31,416 nucleotides of DNA from a virus, in IMG/VR virus record IMGVR_UViG_3300013131_000157, positions 1-31,416 of that record; one strand, 5' to 3'. How positions within the stretch are numbered: the first letter of the stretch is position 1; each line of letters opens with the position of its first letter. Positions 1 through 14,645 of the stretch are shown one piece after another. The position numbers and the translations under genes are program-made. The notes beneath the pieces are model-generated. The model ran no database searches and was not told where the DNA came from. It worked only from the letters and a program-made list of their open reading frames with translations.

Positions 1-3000
1 CGCAAGCGTCCCCGCAATGCACGCAAACCCGCCAAACGACCACAAGGCGAAGCACGCAACGATGTAACCAAACCCGTCGGCGGACCCAATGAAACCGAAG
101 ACTACGCAGGCTACGTCAACCGCAAATACAATGAGTACGCGGAAAACGTGCGCAAGATTCGTGAGCGTGGCGGTCGCGCAGGATTCCTAACCCGTCGCGA
201 ATGGTACGACATTAACAAGCGCAATCTTGATGATGCTTGGCGCAAGAAGGGCAAGGGTGAAGCACCTGACGATTTCATGCCTCCGACTCCCGCTAAGAAG
301 CGTCGCCGTCAATCCGGTGTCCGCAAGAAGCCTCCCGTTCAGGAGAAGGAACCGTCAGCCGATAAGCCTGATGTTGATAAGCCTGTAAAACCGAAAAAGC
401 CCAAGAAGAAGAAGCGGATGTGGACGATTGACTACGGCAGAAGGAGACCACGCAACCGCATGATTGGTGGTGCAGGTAGGGGTGAAAACAGAAACATCGC
501 AGGCAACAAAGAACTTGCTTTACTCACCGACGACGAACTCATTACCGAGTTGGAAAGAATTAACAATGACGAATTCATGAAAGATTGGGATATCCGCCCT
601 GCTGAACGTGAGGCAATCAAAAAGAACATTGAAGCAGAACTCAAATACCGCGTGGACAAACTCCCTGGCGCAGACGCTATCGACAATATTTTGCCGAAAA
701 AGCCGACAGATGTGGAGGAAAGAAACATCGCCGACGCAGAATTTGATGCTCAACATGTGGAGAGCATTTTGGATGTGGCTGGAATAGAAGCCAATGACGA
801 ACTAATGGATGCACTTGGCATGAGCCGCGGACGGCGGGGCGCAGAACCAGAGATAAAAGCAGCGAATGATTTAATTAATGAATACATTGCGAGACGAGCA
901 GAAAAGGAATCTGTTCTTAAGCGTGAGGCGAGACTGATGAGAGTATCAGGGGAAACGGCGAACTCGCCAAAGTGGAATAGGATGAGAGACCGAGTCAGGG
1001 CTTTTGCAGAAGGATTAGAACAACAGGGTTTGAGGGAAATAGAACAAATCAAGAAAAAGCAGGATACTGCACTCAAAATTGCACAAAACAAAGTCTTGCC
1101 ATTGCGAGCAAGATACGAAGCCGCTAAGGAAATGGCGCGAAACGTAGGAGATTTAGATGCTGCAAGAATAAGAGTGCGCCAAGCAAGGGAAGCACTTGCG
1201 AACGTCAACGCAGCGGAAGGCAACTCCCCAACAAACCCACAAATTTTTGATTCAGATTCCCCGATTCAAAAAATTCTTGATGATGTACAACCGCTACTCA
1301 AGCCACACAACCGGGAACTGGAACGAAGAGCACTAAATATTGCGGTGATAGAGGGGCGTAAAGATTTTGAAGATAAAGACAAAAACAGACTCATACAAGA
1401 AGTGCGCCTCCGTGGTGGCGACGAATTGGTGCGAGAACTAATTGCAAGAAACGAAGATAACATCAAAGCGAATCTCCGAGTGTTCCGTAACAAAATGAAA
1501 AAACTTAAGGAAATGGATGATACTAGGGACCGGATGGATTTAATTTCCGACATGGAAGGCAATATACGAATGGCTGCGAGGTTGGAGGCAGAAAATGCCG
1601 CACTTGCAGACATCCTGTCAAATTCAACGCCGCCCAAAACGGAATCAACTCCGCCCCAAGCGGTTAATGCTGGTCGCGAAATTGATGCCGACCGAGCAGT
1701 AAATGACATCGGAAAAGAATACGAGAGGCTGATTGGTAGCGAACTTGACTCTAATCAAAAAGCGCAGATGCGCAGGAAATACAGTGAAGCAATCGCAAAC
1801 GAAAATGTCGTGAAAGCAGTGCAGAAGGATAAAGAACGTTTTGACGAAGCAGCAGAGCGACTTGAAAATGAACAAAACCAAAGCGACGCAGTTGCAGAGA
1901 TGCGAAAACTGGCAGACGAAAGTTTGGACTTTATGAAGGAAGAGATTAAGTCTCGCATAAGAAAGCGAGACAAGTATCTTGATGAGTTGGAAAACGCTAA
2001 TGAGGCAAGAAGAGCCGAACTGTTGCAACGGTTGGCAATTAACGAAGCAATGATGGACATCAATGCACGAAGAGTAAATACGTTACAAAAAAGGATAGAT
2101 GAATATGTAGAAAAATTCTTGCAGGAAAGACAGGATGAAAGAGACGCAGGGGTAAAGCCTGTCGGCTTGGAAGCCGAAACGGTCATAAAAATAGGTAACC
2201 CGTTTAAAGCAAAAGTTGTTCCTGAATTTGATTTGGGAATTGATTTCGGTCAAGGAAAAGGAATGGGCAAATATAAAGAAATCAAGAACCCCAAAATAAA
2301 AAATGCCCTTGACGCCATTAATTTCGTGAAGGATGGCGGCGACCTCCGCGAAGTTCCGCACGAGTATTGGCGGGCTGCCATTGAAGGAAACTCAAGTCGC
2401 AAAGAGACAGATAAGACCAAGCGGTTCCGACAACTATCTAAAAACGGCGGGATTATCGGCGATACTCGTCTTTTTGTATTGAGAGACGCTGCTGGCAAAC
2501 CAACAAATCGCGGAATCGTTTTTAAGGCATCAAAAGCCGAAGACAATCTTGGCGAGTTGGTTGGGTGGAATCTGGCTCATCAAGTTGGAATCATCAAGGG
2601 TGGTGCGGTCGCTGACGGAGAAAATGAGAAAGGTAAGAAATTTATAATGATTCCGTTTGCGTTTAACGACGTGCCAGACGGCAACAATATAATGTCGGAA
2701 AACAACTTAGGCGGTAATTATCACATAGAGAACGTCAAGAGAAAAGTTCCGAAACAACTAAAGCCGAACATGTATGCGGCGCGCCTAAATCAAGAACTCT
2801 TGAATTATATCTTAGCCGTATCTGACCGTCATGACGGAAATGGCATGGCTAAAGGTGTTGAGTTACCGAATGGTGATGTTGCGGCTCATGTCATCCCACT
2901 TGACCTAGGTTGGGCGGGAAAGGTTTATAAAATGGAAGGAATAGGTGACCCACTCAGAAATGGAAATGGCGTCGACAGAAGATTCTGGAACGACTTAGAC

Positions 3001-3255
3001 GATGACCTTAGAAACGCGTCCCCTGAGTTGAAAACAAGAATTCAGGATGCCGTAATCAATGCGTACGACAACGCAATAAAGACCGTTGGTGACGCCATCG
3101 CTGGCGGAGAAGCCGAGTTCATTAAAGAGGCACAAAAAAATTTCAAGAATGCCACAGCAAGAGCAAAAGCAAAGTTCCTTTACAAAGTTATCAAGGAACG
3201 ACATGAACGACTTGTCCTGAAGAGAGATACTTTCCTTAAGAAAATAGGACGATGA
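1..3255 (+). CDS. Giant capsid-region protein with C-terminal HipA/PI3-4-kinase-like domain (5' end outside window)
   Basis: The frame is open to base 1, so the start lies to the left; 1084 residues are visible. The first ~140 residues are rich in Lys, Arg and Pro and look disordered. A long charged alpha-helical, coiled-coil-like stretch follows to about residue 700. The last ~300 residues look like a protein-kinase-like fold of the HipA or PI3/4-kinase type. They show a candidate ATP-binding Lys (VFKA, K842), a helix-C Glu (E852), the catalytic motif DRHDGN (D942) and a DLG metal-binding motif (D968). Position a few genes before the capsid gene suggests a virion or morphogenesis protein, possibly ejected with the DNA. 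Kinase activity is inferred from motifs only, and the substrate is unknown. It resembles the larger gene at 3637-7599 in architecture. Confidence 0.8.
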   Translation, partial: RKRPRNARKPAKRPQGEARNDVTKPVGGPNETEDYAGYVNRKYNEYAENVRKIRERGGRAGFLTRREWYDINKRNLDDAWRKKGKGEAPDDFMPPTPAKKRRRQSGVRKKPPVQEKEPSADKPDVDKPVKPKKPKKKKRMWTIDYGRRRPRNRMIGGAGRGENRNIAGNKELALLTDDELITELERINNDEFMKDWDIRPAEREAIKKNIEAELKYRVDKLPGADAIDNILPKKPTDVEERNIADAEFDAQHVESILDVAGIEANDELMDALGMSRGRRGAEPEIKAANDLINEYIARRAEKESVLKREARLMRVSGETANSPKWNRMRDRVRAFAEGLEQQGLREIEQIKKKQDTALKIAQNKVLPLRARYEAAKEMARNVGDLDAARIRVRQAREALANVNAAEGNSPTNPQIFDSDSPIQKILDDVQPLLKPHNRELERRALNIAVIEGRKDFEDKDKNRLIQEVRLRGGDELVRELIARNEDNIKANLRVFRNKMKKLKEMDDTRDRMDLISDMEGNIRMAARLEAENAALADILSNSTPPKTESTPPQAVNAGREIDADRAVNDIGKEYERLIGSELDSNQKAQMRRKYSEAIANENVVKAVQKDKERFDEAAERLENEQNQSDAVAEMRKLADESLDFMKEEIKSRIRKRDKYLDELENANEARRAELLQRLAINEAMMDINARRVNTLQKRIDEYVEKFLQERQDERDAGVKPVGLEAETVIKIGNPFKAKVVPEFDLGIDFGQGKGMGKYKEIKNPKIKNALDAINFVKDGGDLREVPHEYWRAAIEGNSSRKETDKTKRFRQLSKNGGIIGDTRLFVLRDAAGKPTNRGIVFKASKAEDNLGELVGWNLAHQVGIIKGGAVADGENEKGKKFIMIPFAFNDVPDGNNIMSENNLGGNYHIENVKRKVPKQLKPNMYAARLNQELLNYILAVSDRHDGNGMAKGVELPNGDVAAHVIPLDLGWAGKVYKMEGIGDPLRNGNGVDRRFWNDLDDDLRNASPELKTRIQDAVINAYDNAIKTVGDAIAGGEAEFIKEAQKNFKNATARAKAKFLYKVIKERHERLVLKRDTFLKKIGR

Positions 3256-3299
3256 TGAATCGGAGTCACAAACACGAATGAACAAAGAGGCATAATCCC

Positions 3300-3650
3300 A
3301 TGGAGTACGGACATTTAACTTTTGGTGATTACTTCTATCCGAACGCGGAAGGAGAAGTCATCTATAAGAACAACGCAGGAGATATTGTCCTGCACGGAAC
3401 GTCACCGAAACATATTGAGATAGTTCTCACCTATCTGATTGATTCATCCGCTGAAACAAAATCATATATTGTTGACCCCAAATTTGGTGTTGAGTATGTT
3501 ATGTGGAGAGTGTTCACCCTTGATGGAGAATACAGTTCCACCAATGAGTTCACAGAAAAAGATTTTGAAGAAAAACAAAAACTATTAAAAGCATCCAAAA
3601 CAATAAAAATAATTGCTGACCGAAACACACAATTAAATGCTGACGAATAA
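3300..3650 (+). CDS. Hypothetical protein, 116 aa
   Basis: Not recognised. It is a 116-residue acidic soluble protein with a beta-rich first half (the MEYGHLTFGDYFYP region) and a helical, Lys/Glu-rich C-terminus. There is no signal peptide or membrane segment. AGAGG lies 9 bases before the ATG and is a plausible ribosome binding site. The gene sits between the two kinase-fold giants and its last 14 bases overlap the start of the second one, so the two are probably translationally coupled. A role with those proteins, such as chaperone or partner, is conceivable but rests only on position. Confidence 0.7.
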   Translation: MEYGHLTFGDYFYPNAEGEVIYKNNAGDIVLHGTSPKHIEIVLTYLIDSSAETKSYIVDPKFGVEYVMWRVFTLDGEYSSTNEFTEKDFEEKQKLLKASKTIKIIADRNTQLNADE

Positions 3651-6600
3651 CGAAATCCAGTACAAGGCGTACCGTTTCAAATCGGAAGTTGATAAAACGA
3701 CCTTCGCTTACGGTGTAAAAGGTGTTCGTGCTATGTGGGACCCGAGCCTTTCCATTCCCGGGATTGGCAGGCGCGGTGGGTGGCGTTGTCCAGTCGGAAC
3801 ACGGTACGGTGGGCAAATAACTGACCGTTTTGGTCGTAACTGTGGTTGGGGTGTAGCAAGACGTATCGCCAATGCAATCACGAACATTGGTGAGCGTTTG
3901 GAGAATGTTGATGACCGACGCAGGGGGCGTCGTGTGTCTAAGCGCAACCGCAGAATGTTGGGTCGCTTGCAAAGAAATGTTGAAGCGGGTCGCGCTGAGA
4001 GAGGTTTGCGTGGTATCGCTGAGCGTCTTGAGGGAGGCGCTGAAGCCGGTACGGAAACACCAACTGTTCCACGGAAGCGTCGTGTACGCAATGAGCGTAA
4101 ACCACGCGGTCAACTTGGTCGCGGTTGGCGTGGGGTTCTTGACCCTAATGGGCGTCGCTACTGGGAGCGCGATAACCGTGGTTGGTTTGACGGTAGTGAC
4201 GGCGAGGAAGGCGATGTACCCGAAGCGGATGTAACCCCTGATACGACATCGACCAGACCTGGTGCCGGTCGCGTAGGCGATACTTCAGATGATGGCACTC
4301 CTGCACCAAAACGGCGAAGGCGTAGAGCAGATGCGGATGCTGATGCTCGTGACGAAGGTTTAAGAGAATCAGAACGCAGGCGTGTAAGACGCGAACTTGA
4401 AGAACCTGGTGCGCCGCGCACTGATGAAGATGTGAAACCCGAAGAGGTGAAGCCTCGTCGTCCGCGTAAGCGTCGCGTTCGGGCTTCTGAGCAAAGAGCA
4501 CAGGAAAGTGCTACCCGTAAACCGGGTGGTGAATCCGTATCAGCAGGTACGCAAAAGAAGCCGACAGAGAGAATTGACCTCACCGATGATATGGTTGAAC
4601 TTGAACTTGCACCAGGTGAGAGTGCGCCAGATGAGCGTTCATTCCGCAATGTAGACAATCGTTTCCCGGCAGGCGGTCTACCCGATACTGCTTATTGGCG
4701 CGATAAAGATTTTCCCGAAGGCGAAGTGAAAGCAGAACTTGAGCGCCGATTTGGACGCTATTACGGTGCTGACAACAATATCAATAATCGTGGCAAGTTC
4801 GTCAATCGAGAATTGGAGCGTAGACGCTTCAAAGGGAAAGAAAAATCACCCAAAGACATAGACCTAGACGGAGACATGGTTGAACTTGCTCCTGGCGAAA
4901 GCAAGCCTGATGAGCGTTCATTCCGTAATGTAAATAATCGTTTCCCGAAGAACGGTCTACCGAAGAGCGCGTATTGGCGAGACGACAAATATGACGGTAA
5001 TGACAAGTTTGAACTAGAACGCAGATTCGGTCGCTACTACGATGGCGACAACAACATCAATAATCGCGGCAAAGTTGTGAACCAAGAGTTGGAGCGTCGT
5101 CGCGATGCAGGTGAAATCAAACCTCCTCGGAACCGAAAAAAACCAGAAAAGCCACAAGCAGGCAAACCAGAATTTGATTTGCCCAATGAGCCGCCGTTGC
5201 CACCATTCATGCCGGGAACACAGTTGGATGGAGAGGTTCGCAAAGTTCAAAAGGCTCTTGATGACATAAAAAAAATTGCAGAAGATATTGACCGAGAAGA
5301 AAAAGATTTCCCAAATTTGTTTGAACGCCCTTGGTGGAGAGACACACAAGGCAACGGCTTAGGTGATGAGGACAGGGCAAAGATTGAGGCTGCGTTGGGT
5401 CAGTTTTATGACGGCTCAGGGAAACTTAATGCCCGAGGAAGACAGATTTATAATCAGATTGCCGACTTGAAGAAAAATGAAGCGCCGAAGGCTCCCGAGC
5501 CCGAGGAGTCGTTGATGAACAGGGCGAACTCTGCTGATGAACTTATCAATGCGATTGGTATAGGATGGCGTCAATTGGATGACGGTGAACGCAACATTAT
5601 TAAAAAAGAATTTGCTAATGCTGATGTCGTTGCGGAAAGACTCAAACCCATGGACGCCCAACAAATCGCTGCATTGAGAAGCAATGAAAATGTAGATAGG
5701 TTCGTTGAAGGGTTAAGAAAAATCATCCTTGACCATCAGCGAGATGTTGAAAAACTTATGAAAGGTATGCGACAGGGACGCACAACTCGTGGCGGAGAAC
5801 TAGGGGCGAGACGGAAGAACGAGAATTTGGCAGCGGTTGCTCGGCTGCAACACGATATTGCTCGCAGACGCAACCTGATTGCTCGTGCCGAAAGAAAAAA
5901 GCAGGACGGGTTTTTGGTGGAGGCACCAGAGTTGCCGGTCATGGAAGCACCGAGTCCGAGCGAGGCGGTCGGCAAACTTGATGGTGGGGAAGTTGCTGGA
6001 GAGGGAATCATCCCTCGTGGCGGAGCCCTAGACGGGATAACCCGAGAGGCTTTGAGGGCAGATGTTCAGAAAAAGGCTCAAGACCTGGAGCGCGACTACG
6101 CACAACACGGCGACAACTTTATTCAAAACAACGAAGCGAATGCGATTAGACAGGAACGTAATCGCATGGATAATGCTGTTGAGCAGTGGACAGAAGGCTA
6201 TCGTGCGGCAAAGGCGATTCTTGACGAAAAATTGAAGCGTCATGAAGGGAAAAAATTGGATGGTTTGCCCGAAGAAGAGCAGAAAGAAATCAAACGGCTT
6301 ATAAATAATCTCAACGACCATGCAATACAGATTCGTGCGTTGCAGAAACTTGTTGAGCGCTACGACAAGCACCTAGATGATGCTCCACTTGCTCCAGAGT
6401 CTCAACCCTATGACGGTGTTGGTCCCCTGATTCCGAACGAGCCTTCTCCGATTCGCAGACCACTGAGCCCTCAAATCACCAAATATGACGACGGTGTTAA
6501 GGCTGTTCATCAAGGAAACCAAGGTGTCGCCCTTGATGCTGTCGCAGACGAAATCATTGTTGATGTGATGCTTGATGAGAATTTGGTTGCTGTTGGTGAT

Positions 6601-7599
6601 AAGCATTATGACAACGATGCGAAGATAACAAAAGAGGATTTACAAACAAAAGGGTTCAGCCATTTTATGGTAAAAGGTGGCGAGGTGGAGAATGCTCGTT
6701 TTTCGTTCAAACTCATCAAAGAAGACGGTAGGGGTAACGGAGTTTGGGATGTTGTCAAAGTTAGGGATAAGAGAACTGGAGAAACTTGGTTTTTGAAGGC
6801 GACTGTATACGGTCACAACGGTGGAATGCTGGAAGCAATCGGCATGAGAGCCGCCGAAGCATTGCAACTTGGAAACGATAAAGCGCATTTGAGAGTCGGT
6901 GCCGAAGTCACAGACATGGCTACAGGAAAACGGCATAGATGGATGATGATGCGCGGCATCATGGATTGGGATAATCCTGCCGCTGTGGTACCACAGCAGG
7001 AATGGGCAGATGTGGCAAAGATGGGTTTTGATGCCAAAGCCAGAGCGTCAGACATTTCCCCCGAAGATGCGGCACGAATCGCCGTTTTGGATTTTGTTTT
7101 CAAAAACAATGACCGACATCACGGAAACTTTATGTACAACATTGACCAAAATGGGCAGGTTCGTTTAGGTTTGATTGACCACGGCTTGATTGGTTACGGA
7201 CGGGGGCTAAGGGGTGAGGTGGAAGAGCGAGACAGGCTGGCGCCAACACCTGAACAGTGGAGGGAGGAAGTTGAGAACCATAGACGCAGGCTCAAGCGTG
7301 ATGGCATTGCCGGTTATCAGATGGAACCAAACGACGGTATTTCTGGTTTGAGAAATCTTGGATTCCGTCATCAGTCACAAGAGCAGCGAGAGCGATTCGC
7401 ACGGATTGTTGAACGTTCTGTCAGAGTTCTAGAAAAACAACTTCAGACAATACTGAATCAAGAGGATTTGCAGAAAGCGGGAATGAAACTTACTCCCGCC
7501 GAAACAGCACACCTTGATGCCCTTCGCACAATAGTGGCAGAACGGTTGGAATATCTGAGAACGCATCAAACAGACTTGGTGCGGAAGTTCAATCCGTAA
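3637..7599 (+). CDS. Giant capsid-region protein, 1320 aa, internal repeats and C-terminal HipA/PI3-4-kinase-like domain
   Basis: Residues ~40-75 carry a compact Cys/Gly/Arg segment (CPVGTRYGG, then NCGWGVARR). An Arg-rich, then Arg/Glu/Asp-rich disordered region extends to about residue 310. Three repeats follow at residues 314-397, 409-489 and 557-612 (ERSFRNV, RFP, YWRD, ELERRFGRYY, NNINNRG); the third is degenerate. A coiled-coil-like middle leads to a kinase-fold C-terminus with Lys 1054 (FLKA), Glu 1066, DRHHGN (D1159, N1164) and LIDHG (D1181). All key positions of a HipA/PI3-4-kinase-like active site therefore appear present. The start ATG overlaps the preceding gene by 14 bp. It is likely a structural, internal or ejected virion protein; the enzymatic role is inferred. 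Confidence 0.82.
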   Translation: MLTNNEIQYKAYRFKSEVDKTTFAYGVKGVRAMWDPSLSIPGIGRRGGWRCPVGTRYGGQITDRFGRNCGWGVARRIANAITNIGERLENVDDRRRGRRVSKRNRRMLGRLQRNVEAGRAERGLRGIAERLEGGAEAGTETPTVPRKRRVRNERKPRGQLGRGWRGVLDPNGRRYWERDNRGWFDGSDGEEGDVPEADVTPDTTSTRPGAGRVGDTSDDGTPAPKRRRRRADADADARDEGLRESERRRVRRELEEPGAPRTDEDVKPEEVKPRRPRKRRVRASEQRAQESATRKPGGESVSAGTQKKPTERIDLTDDMVELELAPGESAPDERSFRNVDNRFPAGGLPDTAYWRDKDFPEGEVKAELERRFGRYYGADNNINNRGKFVNRELERRRFKGKEKSPKDIDLDGDMVELAPGESKPDERSFRNVNNRFPKNGLPKSAYWRDDKYDGNDKFELERRFGRYYDGDNNINNRGKVVNQELERRRDAGEIKPPRNRKKPEKPQAGKPEFDLPNEPPLPPFMPGTQLDGEVRKVQKALDDIKKIAEDIDREEKDFPNLFERPWWRDTQGNGLGDEDRAKIEAALGQFYDGSGKLNARGRQIYNQIADLKKNEAPKAPEPEESLMNRANSADELINAIGIGWRQLDDGERNIIKKEFANADVVAERLKPMDAQQIAALRSNENVDRFVEGLRKIILDHQRDVEKLMKGMRQGRTTRGGELGARRKNENLAAVARLQHDIARRRNLIARAERKKQDGFLVEAPELPVMEAPSPSEAVGKLDGGEVAGEGIIPRGGALDGITREALRADVQKKAQDLERDYAQHGDNFIQNNEANAIRQERNRMDNAVEQWTEGYRAAKAILDEKLKRHEGKKLDGLPEEEQKEIKRLINNLNDHAIQIRALQKLVERYDKHLDDAPLAPESQPYDGVGPLIPNEPSPIRRPLSPQITKYDDGVKAVHQGNQGVALDAVADEIIVDVMLDENLVAVGDKHYDNDAKITKEDLQTKGFSHFMVKGGEVENARFSFKLIKEDGRGNGVWDVVKVRDKRTGETWFLKATVYGHNGGMLEAIGMRAAEALQLGNDKAHLRVGAEVTDMATGKRHRWMMMRGIMDWDNPAAVVPQQEWADVAKMGFDAKARASDISPEDAARIAVLDFVFKNNDRHHGNFMYNIDQNGQVRLGLIDHGLIGYGRGLRGEVEERDRLAPTPEQWREEVENHRRRLKRDGIAGYQMEPNDGISGLRNLGFRHQSQEQRERFARIVERSVRVLEKQLQTILNQEDLQKAGMKLTPAETAHLDALRTIVAERLEYLRTHQTDLVRKFNP
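4576..4827 (+). repeat. Coding repeat unit 1 (84 codons)
   Basis: First copy of an in-frame repeat within the 1320-residue protein, residues 314-397. It starts at DLTDDMVEL and ends at ELERRR. The core elements PDERSFRNV, NRFP, YWRD, ERRFGRYY and NNINNRGK are shared almost exactly with unit 2. Confidence 0.85.
4861..5103 (+). repeat. Coding repeat unit 2 (81 codons)
   Basis: Second copy, residues 409-489, separated from unit 1 by an 11-residue Lys-rich linker. DNA identity is visibly high at the ERSFRN and NNINNRG segments, which points to a fairly recent duplication. A third, strongly diverged copy covers about 5305-5472 (RPWWRD, LGQFYDGSGKLNARG). Confidence 0.85.
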
Positions 7600-7988: not shown

Positions 7989-8282
7989 ATGAAAACTTCA
8001 TTCATCGTCAGAAACCGCGAAGACAAGCCGTATTTCGTCGCCACAACATCGGATGTTGGAACAACCTTTCGCGCAATCACCGAAGATGCTAAAGGGCTGG
8101 TTGACGCTTTCAAAGATGAATACAAAAATTCAAAAATAACAAAACAGGAACTAAGCGTCGCCCTTGACCGCGGGATGACCGTAGAAGGTCCGATGCCTGA
8201 AACGCTTGTTGCACAGGCTCTCCGACGCGAACCCAAACCAAAAGAAAAATCAGAAGACCAAGTTTCTGCGAAAGACAAATAA
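7989..8282 (+). CDS. Hypothetical protein, 97 aa
   Basis: Not recognised. The start is supported by GGAAAG just upstream of the ATG. The first 30 residues look like beta strands (TSFIVRNRED, YFVATTSD); the remainder is helical, and the last 15 residues are a Lys/Glu tail. Its stop codon overlaps the start of the next gene by one base (TAATG), so translation is likely coupled to the Cys-repeat protein. No catalytic motif, signal peptide or membrane segment is seen. Its place between the giant proteins and the capsid gene suggests a virion-assembly role, but that is inference. Confidence 0.65.
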   Translation: MKTSFIVRNREDKPYFVATTSDVGTTFRAITEDAKGLVDAFKDEYKNSKITKQELSVALDRGMTVEGPMPETLVAQALRREPKPKEKSEDQVSAKDK

Positions 8283-9409
8283 TGGACGAAAAAGGCGATA
8301 CGCCGAAGGTAAGCCGTGAACAAGCGCTCATGGTTGCTCGTCAACTCGGTTGCCGCGGTGCGCATGAGCATGACGGTTCATGGATGCCATGTGCCTCTCA
8401 CGATGAGTTTCTTTCGGTTCGCAAGGGCTCCAATGAGATGCGTAAAGCATCAGCAAAAAGTGTTCGCGTTCACAGAACAGAGTTAGAGCATCGCGCTGCC
8501 CTAACAGAATCAAAATCTGGTGAAATGTACGAGACTCGTGCAATGGCAGAGGAAGCATCCCGCAAGCGTGGGTGCAAGGGTGTGCGGACAATTATTTTTG
8601 GTGGACACAAGTACTATGCGCCGTGTGTGGCAACTGAGCGGTTTGACCCCCTACGGGAACGAGGTGTTGCAGGTATTGAAACCTTGCCCGATGGTGGTCT
8701 TGTTTCTGCCAAGTCCGAGAACTGTTGTCCTGATTCAAATATGGAGGGTAAGAGTTTCGTTAATCGTGTGAGTAGGTCAACCGACCCCGATGTGTTTCAA
8801 AATCCTGATTCTGCTCGTGTGCGGGCAAGAAACTTGGGGTGTATCGGAATCAGGCGATATACGGCTAGTGACGGCAAAACCGTTTGGTTGCCATGCTCTA
8901 ACGGTTCTGACTACAACAGGGTTATGGGTCTGCGGACAGATAGGTCGCCAAAGAAGAATCCTCGTGTGCGAACCGGCAAGAAATCTTTTGATGGTTTGCG
9001 TGATATGCAACAGAAAATGATTACCCGACCCAAAAAACGTTTGCCGAATGTGGGCAGTGAAACTATCAATGATTTAGCGATTCTTGTGCGTAAACATAAT
9101 GCGTCCGTCAAGAAGCAGGCTTACAAAACTAATTTGCGTGATGTTAAGCAGGTATATTTGCGCGGGTTGATTGCTGGTTCTGAGGCGGATGCCAAGAAGC
9201 GTGTATTAACTTTTCTCAAGGCGATGAGTTCGGATGAGCCGATGCCTCGCGGTTCACGAATGGACTTTGATTTGGTTCCCGACAACCATCCATCCAAGGA
9301 AGTGAAATCAGTCAAGAAAGACGGCTATTTCACCGATGGAACAAACGGTGTAAAGATTATTGATGGTTGTTGTCCGCAAAATGTTGTCAGGCGACACAAA
9401 CTCTCTTAG
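8282..9409 (+). CDS. Cys-repeat protein (three GC...PC units), 375 aa
   Basis: The N-terminal 215 residues contain three copies of a ~30-residue unit: a helix with Ala/Arg, then (L/R)GC-x-G, then 10-15 residues, then an aromatic-x-PC. The Cys pairs are C24/C37, C98/C115 and C187/C205. Two Cys-Cys dipeptides also occur (NCCPDS near 148, GCCPQN near 363). Such pairs could bind metal or form disulfides; neither can be decided from sequence. The C-terminal half is basic and helical. The gene lies directly before the capsid gene, where a protease, scaffold or decoration protein is common, but no protease motif is visible. The start overlaps the upstream stop by one base. Confidence 0.72.
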   Translation: MDEKGDTPKVSREQALMVARQLGCRGAHEHDGSWMPCASHDEFLSVRKGSNEMRKASAKSVRVHRTELEHRAALTESKSGEMYETRAMAEEASRKRGCKGVRTIIFGGHKYYAPCVATERFDPLRERGVAGIETLPDGGLVSAKSENCCPDSNMEGKSFVNRVSRSTDPDVFQNPDSARVRARNLGCIGIRRYTASDGKTVWLPCSNGSDYNRVMGLRTDRSPKKNPRVRTGKKSFDGLRDMQQKMITRPKKRLPNVGSETINDLAILVRKHNASVKKQAYKTNLRDVKQVYLRGLIAGSEADAKKRVLTFLKAMSSDEPMPRGSRMDFDLVPDNHPSKEVKSVKKDGYFTDGTNGVKIIDGCCPQNVVRRHKLS

Positions 9410-9538
9410 TTGCAAGCCATAACAACAAAACATGTTATTCTCGTATTGTCAGTAGATGAATAGTTTACTGTGACTGGGTGCTTACCTAAGTCGTATAACG
9501 ATTACAACCACCCAACACATTCCCCAGGAGGGATTCAA
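9410..9538 (+). promoter_or_regulatory. Capsid gene leader with candidate promoter and inverted repeat
   Basis: This is a 129-base gap without a gene. TTGCAA (9410-9415) and TGTTAT (9433-9438) are 17 bases apart and could be a promoter. The second hexamer is also the right arm of an inverted repeat, ATAACA (9419-9424) with TGTTAT. If this promoter is used, the capsid mRNA has a leader of roughly 95 bases. It ends in AGGAGGG (9526-9532), 7 bases before the ATG at 9539, one of the strongest ribosome binding sites in the window. Confidence 0.45.
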
Positions 9539-10858
9539 ATGTCTGATGACATTCGCCTTCGCGAACTGCAAACCGCACTTCGCGAAAAGATGACAGACAA
9601 CAAGACCATCGCCGACTCTTTCAAAGTTGAAGACGGCACGGTTGTTGTTTCTGCCGAACAAAAGAGCGCGTTCGACCGCAACATGTCGGACATCCGCGAA
9701 ATCAAGAGCCTGATTGAAGGCATGGAGAGCATGCGCGATGCAGAGAAGTGGGCTTCACAGCCCGCCTCTGAGTCGGTCGCAAGCGCCGCCGCTCAGCCAG
9801 TTCAGCAACTGACCTCGCGTGAAATCAAGAGCATCGGTGATGCGTTCCTCGCTTCAGAGGAGTTCAAGTCCCTGAAGTCAGGTCGCAATGGCGCGAACAT
9901 GCCTGCCCCGTTTGAGTACAACGTGAAGGATGTCTTCACGAGTATGCCAACTGGTCCGGCGTCGCCACTTTCGTCGGTTGAGCAGTTCGGTACGTTCCAG
10001 CGCGACCCGATGGTCGTTGCCCCGACTCGTACCCGTCGCGTCCGCGACCTCTTCCCGAAGCGCACCACCAACGCTGCCGTGATTGAGTACTTCCGTCAAA
10101 TCGGCTACACCTCCCCGTCTGGCATGACGCCTCCGACCAACAACGCGGCAACTGTTGCTGAGCGCTCGGGTTCGCCCGCAGTGTTCGCCACCAAGCCGCA
10201 GTCGGGTCTGAAGTTCACTGGACATCAGGCACCGGTTCGTACGATGGCTCACTGGGAAGCCGCTCACCGCAATGTCCTTGCCGATGAGCCGCAACTCCGT
10301 AGCATCATCGACAACGAACTGATGTACGGTCTGCGCCTCCTTGAGGACACCCAAATCCTCAACGGTGACGGAACGGGCGAGAACCTTGAAGGTGTTCTCA
10401 ACACCACCGGCATCCAGACCTACTCGTGGTCTGCAGGTGGCGTGGGCGACCTCAAGGCGGATGCAATCCGTCGTGCGGCAACGCTCTCGTTCCTCGCGTA
10501 CTACGAGCCGACGGGCGTCGTGATGCACCCGAACGACTGGGAGGACATTGAACTGTCCAAGGATGACAACGGTCAGTACCTCGTTGCTGTGTCGGTCGCC
10601 CTTGGTGGTCAGCCTCGCCTGTGGCGCATCCCTGTTGTGGACACACCCGCAATCGCAGAAGGCACCGCACTTGTCGGCGCATTCGGCACCGCGGCGCAAA
10701 TCTACGACCGCGAGACGGCGAACATCCGCATCAGCGAGCAGCACGCAGACTTCTTCGTGCGTAACGCAATCGTGATTCTTGCCGAGCAGCGCCTTGCGCT
10801 TGCTGTCAAGCGTCCGGAAGCGTTCGTCGAAGTCACGTTTGACGGTGCACCTGCCTGA
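9539..10858 (+). CDS. Major capsid protein, HK97 fold, 439 aa
   Basis: Forms the icosahedral shell. The first ~110 residues are a charged helical segment resembling the HK97 delta/scaffold domain, usually removed by the head protease. The body follows the Phage_capsid family pattern: an N-arm, then VRDLFPKRTT, a glycine/threonine-rich E-loop region, FTGHQAPVRTMAHWEAAHRN, LLEDTQILNGDGTGENLEGVLN, a VVMHPNDWEDI A-domain helix and a C-terminal beta segment. Start ATG 9539 is fixed by AGGAGGG; an upstream in-frame GTG at 9470 would bypass that site. GC content and C-ending codons are clearly higher than in neighbours, as expected for the most expressed gene. A strong terminator follows. Family assignment is confident. 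Confidence 0.93.
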   Translation: MSDDIRLRELQTALREKMTDNKTIADSFKVEDGTVVVSAEQKSAFDRNMSDIREIKSLIEGMESMRDAEKWASQPASESVASAAAQPVQQLTSREIKSIGDAFLASEEFKSLKSGRNGANMPAPFEYNVKDVFTSMPTGPASPLSSVEQFGTFQRDPMVVAPTRTRRVRDLFPKRTTNAAVIEYFRQIGYTSPSGMTPPTNNAATVAERSGSPAVFATKPQSGLKFTGHQAPVRTMAHWEAAHRNVLADEPQLRSIIDNELMYGLRLLEDTQILNGDGTGENLEGVLNTTGIQTYSWSAGGVGDLKADAIRRAATLSFLAYYEPTGVVMHPNDWEDIELSKDDNGQYLVAVSVALGGQPRLWRIPVVDTPAIAEGTALVGAFGTAAQIYDRETANIRISEQHADFFVRNAIVILAEQRLALAVKRPEAFVEVTFDGAPA

Positions 10859-10945: not shown

Positions 10946-10952
10946 TACTGTG

Positions 10953-12512
10953 ATGTCTGACGAAATTCGCATAAAAATTCTTGGACTAAACATCGGCAAT
11001 ATACGACGTGTTGCGCTTGGCGGAAAACCCAAATTTCCCAAGGATGGAGATGGTGACGGAATGTTCACCATGCCGGGTAGTGACGAGGACAAAACACCCC
11101 TTGTTACCGCACTTCGTTATGCCATCAACAGTCTTCGTAGTTTTCGTATAAAAAAATTTGAATTAAGACAAGATAGTCCACAAAAATCGGAAGTTGTTCG
11201 CAAATGGCTAATTGAGGCAAAGTCTGGTGGTTTCACTGCAGACAGAAATCTCAAAATGGATGTTAAGCAAGGCATATCGGTGGGCAGGAATAAGCACGGT
11301 ATGTCGGTGGATATGGATAAGGTTTTTGATGAAAATGGCGAGGTTCGCGAGGATGCGATTGACCGCGTGATTGCATGGATGGAATATCACGGGGAAAGAA
11401 TTTTTGACGAACCGCTAGAGGGTGCGAGGCAAGTTGGGATTGGGGCTTGGGTTGAGAAAGGGATGTTTTATATTGATGTTGTTGACATCTATGAGAACAA
11501 TGAACAAAACAGGGAACGGGCTTACGAGTTGGGTAAAGCGCAGAATCAAAAGTCAATTGCTTTTCTTGAGAGGTTGTGGAGGGCTAAAGAAACAAACGAA
11601 AAAGAGGACTGGGACAACGCTTTTTTGACAACCGATGGCGATGGGGCAGATACGATTCCTTGGTATACCTTTGACCCGATAGTAGAAATGATGCGGTCAA
11701 AGAGAAAACCATCTGCCGCTAATGCCAAACCCGCCATTGTGGAACCCAAGAATATGGATAGAACTGGTCCTGAGAATGTGACCATGCAATTGGCTGAGCC
11801 CATTCCAATGTTTGCCAAACATTTGAATGGTGATTTCAGTGATGTTGTAGCAGTTGCGCCCGAGAAAAGACAACGAATTGCCGACCATTACGACTTACAG
11901 CCAGAGGTTGATGAAAAAGCAAAGAAAGCGTATGACGAACTCAAAGAAGAAGTTGAGCGTCAATTTGAAATGCTGAGAGAAATGGGTATAACCGTAGAGT
12001 TTGTGGACTACGACCCCTATGACGGATTCCATTCAATGCGAAAAGATGTTGTTGAGAACAAGCGTCTGAAGGTTATGAAAACATCGGTGACTGGTTCTCA
12101 TCCATATTGGGATGACGACACAAACGACAAATTTAGGGCTGTTCACGATGTATTTGGACATCTTGCCACAGGGCGTGGGTTTGACCGACATGGGGAGGAG
12201 GCGGCGTATCAGGCTCACAAGTCAATGATGCCCGAATCGGTTCATGGTGCTCTGGCAATGGAGACAAGGGGGCAAAACGCCTTTGTTTTGGCGAGGGGTG
12301 ATTTTCCCAAACAGAAGGCAGGAATATTGCCTGACGAACTTGCCAAGCGTCTCCGTGGTTCGTCGCGCTCACAAATAGAGGGAATGATTACAGCAGATGA
12401 TGACAATTTGTATGAAATGGGCGGCTCTCACCATATTTCTGGCGGTCGTTATTTCAAGAACAACAGGACAGGTTCTAAACAACTTTCTTTTCGTATAATA
12501 GTGGTTGGGTGA
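10953..12512 (+). CDS. Two-module phage protein with DGDGDG loop and HDxFGH motif, 519 aa
   Basis: Residues 31-46 carry DGDGDG followed by a Pro/Asp-rich stretch, resembling a partial calcium-binding loop: Asp at 31, 33 and 35, but Gly rather than Glu at loop position 12. Residues ~90-225 resemble a module of unknown function recurrent in phage morphogenesis proteins (SVDMDKVF, GIGAWVEKGMFYIDVVDIY, KAQNQKSIAFLERL). Residues ~350-480 hold FRAVHDVFGH, GFDRHGEEAAYQAH and METRGQNAF. H398 and H403, with a downstream Glu, could ligate a metal, recalling the HDxxGH motif of aromatic amino acid hydroxylases; this is analogy, not proof. ATG 10953 is preferred to the in-frame GTG at 10950 because of the -10 box. 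Confidence 0.78.
   Translation: MSDEIRIKILGLNIGNIRRVALGGKPKFPKDGDGDGMFTMPGSDEDKTPLVTALRYAINSLRSFRIKKFELRQDSPQKSEVVRKWLIEAKSGGFTADRNLKMDVKQGISVGRNKHGMSVDMDKVFDENGEVREDAIDRVIAWMEYHGERIFDEPLEGARQVGIGAWVEKGMFYIDVVDIYENNEQNRERAYELGKAQNQKSIAFLERLWRAKETNEKEDWDNAFLTTDGDGADTIPWYTFDPIVEMMRSKRKPSAANAKPAIVEPKNMDRTGPENVTMQLAEPIPMFAKHLNGDFSDVVAVAPEKRQRIADHYDLQPEVDEKAKKAYDELKEEVERQFEMLREMGITVEFVDYDPYDGFHSMRKDVVENKRLKVMKTSVTGSHPYWDDDTNDKFRAVHDVFGHLATGRGFDRHGEEAAYQAHKSMMPESVHGALAMETRGQNAFVLARGDFPKQKAGILPDELAKRLRGSSRSQIEGMITADDDNLYEMGGSHHISGGRYFKNNRTGSKQLSFRIIVVG
12494..12499 (+). promoter_or_regulatory. Perfect TATAAT -10 box
   Basis: A consensus TATAAT inside the last codons of the preceding gene. Transcription would start near 12506, ten bases before the small ORF at 12516. 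No convincing -35 box is seen at 17-18 bases. Confidence 0.4.
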
Positions 12513-14066: not shown

Positions 14067-14609
14067 TTATTCCCCTAGGAAGAAAGCGTTCAGAATTTTA
14101 AGTAAACGACCCGACTTGAACCCGAACAATCGTTCAAGGTGCTCAACGATGAGTTCGTTTGGTGAGAATGAACGCTTATATACATCGCTCAAAGTCTTGT
14201 CTTGTTCGTTCCCCCACCAATTGCGACGCGAAACAATGGGGTGATTATGCTTCAGCAAGTGGAAAGCCTCGTGTTCATTGAATCCGTTGGAGATTGCGAT
14301 TCCCCACGCCGTAGCGGTAGAGCGACTTATGCCAGCATGACAGTGGACAAGTAGATTTTCTCTACCGTGACCCCACCCAATCATCTCTCGGACATGCTCA
14401 AAAGTTGGAGCATCACCCCAATCGGGTGTCACGACATCATCAAATGTCACGATTTTGTGGTCAGGATGGTTAAAATCCTTGACCTCTGATTTGCTTGGAC
14501 CTGCGGTAAGAACGGAAGAGAACTCGTGACAAATCGCCCGAGACTCTTCTAGGTTCCTAACCGTAGGAAGAAGTAGTTGTCGTTGTGTTGTGTTGGTGCT
14601 ATTACTCAT
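14067..14609 (-). CDS. Dual-specificity/tyrosine-type protein phosphatase-like protein, 180 aa
   Basis: Contains the signature LLVHCHAGISRS: the nucleophile Cys 90 and phosphate-binding Arg 96 of the CX5R superfamily. An upstream Asp-rich loop (TPDWGDAP, D63 or D66) could supply the general acid. Length and layout fit a minimal dual-specificity phosphatase; the substrate could be phosphoprotein, nucleotide or lipid. ATG 14609 is chosen because TTGACA-17-TACACT places the transcript start almost exactly on it. ATG 14615 is too close to the -10 box, and a TTG at 14645 lies in the -35 box. It is the first gene of the minus-strand unit. Confidence 0.8.
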   Translation of the reverse strand: MSNSTNTTQRQLLLPTVRNLEESRAICHEFSSVLTAGPSKSEVKDFNHPDHKIVTFDDVVTPDWGDAPTFEHVREMIGWGHGRENLLVHCHAGISRSTATAWGIAISNGFNEHEAFHLLKHNHPIVSRRNWWGNEQDKTLSDVYKRSFSPNELIVEHLERLFGFKSGRLLKILNAFFLGE

Positions 14610-14616
14610 ATCCATA

Positions 14617-14645
14617 AGTGTACGGTCTTGAAATGCGTTTGTCAA
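14617..14645 (-). promoter_or_regulatory. Promoter of the phosphatase unit, predicted leaderless
   Basis: On the minus strand a consensus TTGACA (14645-14640), a 17-base spacer and TACACT (14622-14617) form a good sigma-70-type promoter. The expected +1 is near 14610, next to ATG 14609. Confidence 0.7.

Follow-up and report, generated by a model that had tools for sequence, protein, structure and literature searches.

The 31,416-bp virus record IMGVR_UViG_3300013131_000157, analysed over its whole length and referred to below as the window, contains two genes for giant proteins, P1 and P2, that lie upstream of a capsid gene and end in domains predicted to adopt a kinase fold (Table 1). To judge from alignments with their relatives, these proteins constitute a modular family, in which a near-invariant N-terminal module (N-module) and a charged spacer are followed by an exchangeable C-terminus. 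An earlier interpretation of the same DNA, made before any database search (the sequence-only reading), had placed complete kinase active sites at both C-termini, and the two open reading frames (ORFs; 1-3255 and 3637-7599) do exist, with the active-site residues at the positions it gave: K842 (in VFKA), E852, D942-R-H-D-G-N947 and D968 (in PLDLG) in P1, and K1054 (in FLKA), E1066, D1159-R-H-H-G-N1164 and D1181 (in LIDHG) in P2. Besides the giant proteins, the window encodes an HK97-type capsid protein, a ribonucleotide reductase and a WhiB protein (PF02467, E 9e-16). WhiB proteins are typical of actinobacteria and their phages, and the presence of this gene therefore suggests an actinobacterial host.

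AlphaFold models of the C-terminal domains were obtained with a pLDDT of 84.8 and a pTM of 0.87 for P1, and 77.0 and 0.81 for P2. By DSSP, the Lys of these models sits in a strand, and the long helix that follows contains the Glu; DRH comes just past a helix and ahead of two strands, the second of which is directly followed by the second Asp, a kinase-like arrangement. In VIA-align, the P1 model matched PI4KII-beta (Z 13.3, root-mean-square deviation 4.2, 243 residues aligned), CotH (13.2), CtkA (11.5) and HipA (11.0), with HipT, Vps34 and Fam20 also ranked and Z falling to 9.4 at row 50; the P2 model matched CotH (12.2), CtkA (10.9), PI4KII (10.7) and HipA (9.9), with PI3K also listed. Identity in the structural alignments to CotH, PI4KII, HipA and CtkA is ~7-16%, and the fold assignment is relative to the families listed by Foldseek and VIA. 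When compared with predicted structures of viral proteins, the P1 model matched an uncultured-phage protein named PI 3-/4-kinase (E 2e-9) and gp16 of the haloarchaeal virus HSTV-2 (E 2e-4), which we infer to be BFVD entry L7TJZ0 from their equal length of 490 amino acids (aa); weaker matches were to the Gordonia phages GodonK (E 2.4e-3) and Sixama (E 3.4e-3), and to a protein named HK97 portal (E 7e-3).

Family searches gave a graded picture. A profile of 30 diverse domains matched PI4K-beta in the PDB (E 1.7e-5), followed by 4kqa, a Golgi casein kinase of Fam20 type (E 1.2e-3), and then PI4KA and PIKK kinases; in the five alignments shown, all to PI4K-beta, the DRHxGN loop and the metal Asp coincide. 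A profile built from four P2 domains matched no PDB chain. The Pfam model PF00454 (cut-off 27.1 bits) was listed for all ten domains searched, and exceeded its cut-off in only one of them, the P2 copy of contig L002 (29.4 bits), with P2 of the window at 26.1 bits and P1 at 12.4 (E 0.15); elsewhere it was exceeded by a 617-aa protein of the relative G006 (29.3) and by a protein of Micromonospora phage pMLP1 (29.7). No Pfam HipA model was listed for P1 or P2, HipA_2 appearing under its cut-off (E 0.024-0.15) in three of the ten domains, all of the type of a third paralogue, P3, and the SCO1664 family TIGR03843 (cut-off 172.4 bits) gave 10.9 bits for P2 and was not listed for P1. In PHROGs, P3-type domains and P2 fall into phrog_3162, of unknown function (best E 4e-9). 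The comparisons with named families that had been suggested were thus borne out for the kinase fold by structure prediction, and not by PF00454, HipA or SCO1664, whose cut-offs P1 and P2 do not reach. The proposed resemblance of the active site to HipA and PI3/PI4 kinases stands, with motifs, family profile and predicted folds in agreement. On these models the C-termini of P1 and P2 are domains of the HipA/CotH/PI4K kinase superfamily with a two-lobe kinase fold; they look catalytically complete in their active-site motifs, and phosphotransfer is predicted.

The beginning of P1 lies beyond the window edge, and was recovered from contig L001, which is 99.96% identical to the window across 15,596 nt. 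There the complete gene (L001:1159-5382) encodes 1407 aa, residue 1 of the window being its residue 324, and one residue differs in the common part. The Lys/Arg/Pro-rich stretch that had been taken for the start of P1 is consequently internal, and is preceded by a domain of ~85 aa and an RCPVGTRYGG module. The middle of both proteins, previously described as coiled-coil-like, is by composition a charged, Ser/Thr-poor spacer (Ser+Thr 4-7%). P3 is complete (~900 aa, with a kinase) after P2 in the sister contigs L002-L004, and the window retains a 97-aa stub of it. That this stub is a lone assembly error was considered and rejected, as L001 has the same sequence; the contigs may come from related samples, which makes this support and not proof.

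The N-module, common to P1, P2, P3 and the arrays of relatives, spans ~105 aa with the pattern WDPxLSIPG..RRGGWRCPxGTRYGGQITDRFGRxCGWG..ARRIAN, has two Cys that are invariant across nine aligned sequences, and was matched in 17 of 20 records including the window. In the 144,873-bp G006 record its matches lie only at 82.4-89.9 kb, with the capsid gene at 75.7 kb. The idea that the small ORFs correspond to the N-terminal domain of P1/P3 went unsupported, as a profile of that domain, run on 66 of them, gave no match with E under 0.05. In L028 and L072 (G010), which represent a more distant phage group, the kinase giant starts with a DADGDGLVQEGT stretch, and no match to the RCPxGTRYGG module was seen.

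A scan of viral contigs with the module, covering the best 80 of 87 confirmed stretches at 70 loci, gave 88 non-redundant module proteins. Among the 54 that are complete at the 3' end, the C-terminus matches the kinase profiles in 37, a domain labelled A9 in 13 and neither in four; a further 34 ORFs, incomplete at that end (13 kinase, two A9, 19 none), were left out of this count. As these proteins were found through the N-module alone, without the DRH pattern, they provide an independent test of the motifs: DRHxxN with a downstream Asp occurs in 35 of the 37 matches to the kinase profile, and the two without DRHxxN are the two weakest (E 1e-5 and 3e-6). Because they retain these motifs, 35 of the 54 complete proteins are counted as clear kinases. 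Among 114 module-less ORFs of at least 420 aa from the same loci, the pattern occurred in none that lacked a kinase-profile match. In an alignment of 30 domains (mean column identity 25%), to which one scan with the pattern DRH[GDH]GN contributed and which includes some closely related rows, no variation is seen in the Lys, in one Ala and one Gly, in the D, R, H and N of the loop, or in the second D, with the helix-C Glu conserved in at least 90%. A chance motif is rejected by this invariance, by the module-only set and by the structural matches.

The C-terminal domains are exchanged behind the module. Identical modules (100%) precede kinases that are only 25-31% alike in L091 versus L093 and L094, and in L129 versus L144. 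At the same gene position, G006 and G008 share 98% over 220 N-terminal residues and 26% in the C-terminus, the corresponding values for G006 and G007 are 87% and 99%, and G009 has an A9 domain, 30-45% identical to the others. Across 97 non-redundant proteins, 82 pairs have an N-module identity of at least 85% and a different C-terminal class, with C-termini 23-33% alike in the 40 pairs listed with identities; the class labels are rough, in that 'A6' includes a distinct G008/G016 tree lineage and 28 of the 97 rows are 'none'. Between the window and L003, the capsid proteins are 98.9% identical in aa (proportion of synonymous differences, pS, 0.057) and the P2 kinases 66.9% (pS 0.82), and this last value points to exchange of P2 between close relatives, set against a pS of 0.006-0.131 for three genes of the stretch that starts at the DUF3721 gene. 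The A9 domain, e.g. L064:5964-6833 (-) and L070:4574-5563 (-), has conserved YNQH and DDGxYVW..GF motifs; by eye it is like a GNAT-type acetyltransferase, a likeness unsupported by Pfam, where nothing passed the cut-off (best Eco57I, E 0.0016, in one of three tested), or by the PDB search, which gave no match.

Gene order ties the family to the head genes. As the 19 records compared were selected for the kinase domain, its presence in all of them is by construction; they have one to four profile matches each, some split, and an HK97 capsid gene is also found in 16. Many records are near-identical phages, and such counts are not of independent events. G006, the one relative whose whole block was annotated, has the array between the prohead protease and HK97 capsid genes, in accord with the virion-block location that had been claimed for the window. 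The block runs from a terminase (by eye, on the opposite strand), through a portal with a MuF end, the prohead protease and two smaller genes, to a kinase protein; then a small ORF, a module-variant protein without a kinase, a kinase protein, a small ORF and another kinase protein; and finally a small ORF, a module protein with an A9 end, a small ORF, two genes whose Cys motifs resemble those of DUF3721 (by eye) and the capsid gene. Portal, MuF and protease were identified by Pfam (PF04860, PF04233 and PF04586), and at L065:2982-5183 (-), in this same relative, the portal is fused to Phage_Mu_F (PF04860 E 1e-49, PF04233 E 7e-8). Small ORFs separate the giant genes of G006 as they do in the window. 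In a tree of 30 domains, P1-like, P3-like and P2-like groups are apart, with several long branches and unsure deeper joins.

Table 1. Features of the giant-protein array and adjoining genes in the window
Feature	Position	Strand	Remarks
P1 giant protein	1..3255	+	1084 aa in window, 5' end cut by window edge
P1 C-terminal kinase-fold domain (predicted)	2278..3252	+	residues ~760-1084
P1 catalytic-loop motif DRHDGN	2824..2841	+	residues 942-947
Small ORF between P1 and P2	3300..3650	+	116 aa; 14-base overlap with P2 start; no function found
P2 giant protein	3637..7599	+	1320 aa
P2 conserved N-module (WDPSLSIPG..RRGGWRCPVGTRYGGQITDRFGRNCGWG...RRGRR)	3655..3963	+	
P2 C-terminal kinase-fold domain (predicted)	6484..7596	+	residues 950-1320
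P2 catalytic-loop motif DRHHGN	7111..7128	+	residues 1159-1164
Small ORF after P2	7608..7907	+	99 aa
P3 remnant	7989..8282	+	97 aa; first domain only of third paralogue
DUF3721-repeat protein, between array and capsid gene	8282..9409	+	three DUF3721 stretches
HK97-type major capsid protein	9470..10858	+	PF05065 E 3.6e-43; phrog_10

Comparable domains occur near the head genes of named phages. In the unannotated record of pMLP1, from a cultured strain, the portal gene (phrog_533, E 1.5e-96) is followed by one whose 647-aa product joins Phage_min_cap2 (PF06152, E 1.7e-75) to the PF00454 domain mentioned above. In Microbacterium phage Pumpernickel, whose host is M. paraoxydans NRRL B-14843, gp82, a protein of 2235 aa encoded two genes after the portal gp80, has a C-terminal domain with intact motifs (36.7 bits with the family profile), and HSTV-2 gp16, three genes after the capsid gene, has a PF00454-like domain (25.5 bits, under the cut-off), the name 'phosphatidylinositol kinase' being given in four of eight matching records. 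A by-eye assignment of the gp16 N-terminus as HK97-gp10-like was unsupported by Pfam. The placements in these unlike phages favour a virion role for such domains, and fall short of proof. With tblastn, P1, P2 and two P3-type proteins found no match in 50,697 phage records (E limit 0.01), nor did one further kinase in the same records (E limit 1), while another query matched only Pumpernickel, in two records at E 0.8, later backed by the family profile. A search of genome contigs gave four loci, cellular by look, and the pMLP1 kinase, searched against 396 genomes from the phylum of Serinicoccus, had one match, to a protein that does not have the look of a head-gene product. At L157:1-3480 (-) lies a bacterial giant protein with a kinase-like stretch and FHA-like repeats (by eye), in which the metal Asp seems lost.

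From the computed fold, active-site motifs, family, gene position, N-module and swapping, a scheme can be proposed in which the N-module would probably dock each protein into the assembling head, and the long charged, Ser/Thr-poor spacer would link it to an exchangeable C-terminal enzyme, which for P1 and P2 would be an atypical HipA/CotH/PI4K-superfamily kinase. Made late, the proteins would be incorporated into the procapsid and released from the head along with the DNA, and in the early phase of infection the kinases would phosphorylate components of the host, much as RNA polymerase is ADP-ribosylated by T4 Alt; the placement in the procapsid, the exit with DNA and the modification of the host at entry are drawn by analogy with T4 Alt, internal proteins and polyvalent proteins. 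Phages would swap the kinase, or put another domain, behind the same module, as effectors pressed by host targets or defences would. That P1, P2 and P3 are virion-carried, injected phospho-effectors evolving through domain swapping has, in our estimation, an even chance of being right. A fuller version is put forward more tentatively, as falling somewhat short of even: each particle would carry at least two different kinases (of P1, P2 and P3 types, joined in some by a second enzyme-like domain), loaded through one capsid-docking module and co-injected, the set being re-dealt by swapping. It would form the phage counterpart of polymorphic effector systems, rewiring host phosphorylation in the first minutes, with RCPxGTRYGGQITDRFGRxCGWG as a new cargo tag for actinobacteriophage heads.

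Several observations weigh against this interpretation. P1 and P2 themselves are below the Pfam and NCBIfam cut-offs, Foldseek matches are weak (best E 1.6e-3 for P1; eukaryotic protein kinases as top rows for P2, with a TM of about 0.25), and Pumpernickel gp82 scores 23.2 bits with PF00454, under the cut-off. The pMLP1 loop reads DRNPGN, with Asn for His, which weakens the virion link. Between L002 and L003 the P2 kinase is near relaxed constraint (proportion of nonsynonymous differences, pN, 0.103 versus pS 0.131), P1 (pN/pS 0.104/0.260) and P3 (0.083/0.165) looking constrained in the same pair, and the loss of P3 from the window phage suggests that not every copy is needed. Late gene products could, moreover, act on virion proteins or superinfecting phages instead. 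Benler et al. 2021 (PMC8008677) report a HipA-like kinase in five Gratiaviridae gut phages, where its gene lies between those for the portal and the major capsid protein and is accompanied by an ATPase and a glycosyltransferase, and they interpret it as a factor of superinfection immunity.

An unpackaged effector acting late inside the cell, for example by excluding superinfecting phages as proposed for the Gratiaviridae kinase, would have that precedent behind it, but by itself leaves unexplained both the near-invariant N-module on the array proteins and the fusion to Phage_min_cap2 in pMLP1, and is considered unlikely. The location of the genes in the head block would also suit a kinase that is not injected and acts in the procapsid, on head proteins or on its fellow kinases, ordering assembly or loosening protein-DNA contacts; CotH, among the nearest structural matches, polyphosphorylates the serine-rich part of the spore coat protein CotB, according to the abstract of PMC7821199. 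The window spacers, with 4-7% Ser+Thr, are unlike that serine-rich substrate, and this composition argues against the spacers as the main kinase substrate. Furthermore, a kinase type that varies behind identical modules, and a copy lost in the window phage, would be odd for an assembly step, as would the replacement of the kinase by another domain in 13 of 54 proteins; a constant module with a changing enzyme is easier to reconcile with conflict involving host targets or defences than with an unvarying step of assembly, and the assembly kinase is judged about as unlikely as the late effector.

Kinases of this superfamily might alternatively act on an inositol lipid of the host membrane or another small molecule. 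Actinobacterial membranes contain phosphatidylinositol, the WhiB gene suggests an actinobacterial host, the best structural match of P1 is PI4KII (tied with CotH) and the best PDB matches of the family profile are PI4K-beta; however, HipA, CotH, CtkA and Fam20 have the same fold and motifs, and ties within one unit of Z cannot separate them, so a lipid or small-molecule target is thought very improbable. Least credible is a kinase-shaped structural domain that binds ATP, or nothing, in a scaffold role: the pMLP1 domain without the loop His speaks for it, while the invariance of K, DRHxxN and D in the 30 aligned domains, and their retention as DRHxxN with Asp in 35 of 37 module-found kinases, leave it little room.

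Some elements of the proposed virion-carried system are already known, namely head-block HipA-type kinases, packaged polyvalent proteins and MuF toxins. The window family differs from the Gratiaviridae kinases in its tandem copies, common N-module, changing C-termini and presumably actinobacterial hosts. Phage CotH-family kinases fused to hypervariable C-type lectin domains (described, as unstudied, in PMC8008677) are likewise fusion proteins of the same superfamily, but have a lectin as partner and not a head-block module, a distinction drawn from their description. Polyvalent proteins, known from phages and conjugative elements (PMC5512222), are large and multidomain, in part predicted to be packaged and injected, and some have kinase domains, described as a Ser/Thr/Tyr-type group in which the C-terminal subdomain has been lost, whereas the window domains match HipA, PI4K and CotH over most of their length and follow an N-module of another kind. 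Like the family, MuF polymorphic toxins (PMC5576092) combine a head-associated N-terminal domain with a variable C-terminal effector; no MuF domain (PF04233 or PF06152) was listed for P2 or for P1 from residue 324, and in pMLP1 the protein does join a kinase-like domain to PF06152, which that paper calls MuF2. The word 'kinase' occurs zero times in the main text of PMC5576092 on MuF toxins. T4 Alt and internal proteins, as described in PMC9958956, are packaged in the head and injected, the prohead protease removing an N-terminal peptide, with a targeting sequence of ~10 aa in IPII and IPIII; Alt, in contrast, is an ADP-ribosyltransferase and not a kinase, and the targeting sequence is different from the N-module and much shorter. 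Packaged modifying enzymes thus have precedent (PMC5512222 and PMC9958956). CotH, PI4KII, HipA and CtkA have the same fold and catalytic residues and are cellular enzymes, and HSTV-2 gp16 and its relatives resemble the family in a PF00454-like domain near the capsid gene, with a different N-terminal region and in archaeal viruses.

The N-module and the swapping of C-termini behind it appear to be new: in the open-licence literature, where absence is weak evidence, no description was found of the module, of tandem kinase arrays, of swapping or of a minor capsid protein that bears a kinase-like domain. Characterised phage kinases are few, PMC8008677 counting two, of T7-like phages and of 933W, and the family would add a large, exchangeable kinase class tied to the head block. 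Pumpernickel and pMLP1, as named phages of cultured hosts, give experimental access to virion location and to phosphorylation at entry, and the N-module, should it prove to be a docking tag, would offer a handle on protein loading into phage heads.

Other genes of the window lie downstream of the array. After the capsid gene, positions 10950-12512 encode a 520-aa protein of phrog_3170 (unknown function) with DGDGDG and HDVFGH motifs, 99.8% identical to its L003 copy, and the ribonucleotide reductase at 15892-17874 matches PF17975 and PF02867 and also PF21995, a model of the B12-dependent insertion domain. A dual-specificity-phosphatase-like gene (HCHAGISRS; PF00782 26.4 bits, under the cut-off) lies at 14067-14645 (-), downstream of the head block. 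PF00782 is matched in 11 of 20 records, in each case under the cut-off, and an annotated phosphatase of this kind is also found in HSTV-2; the gene is a possible counterpart to the kinases.

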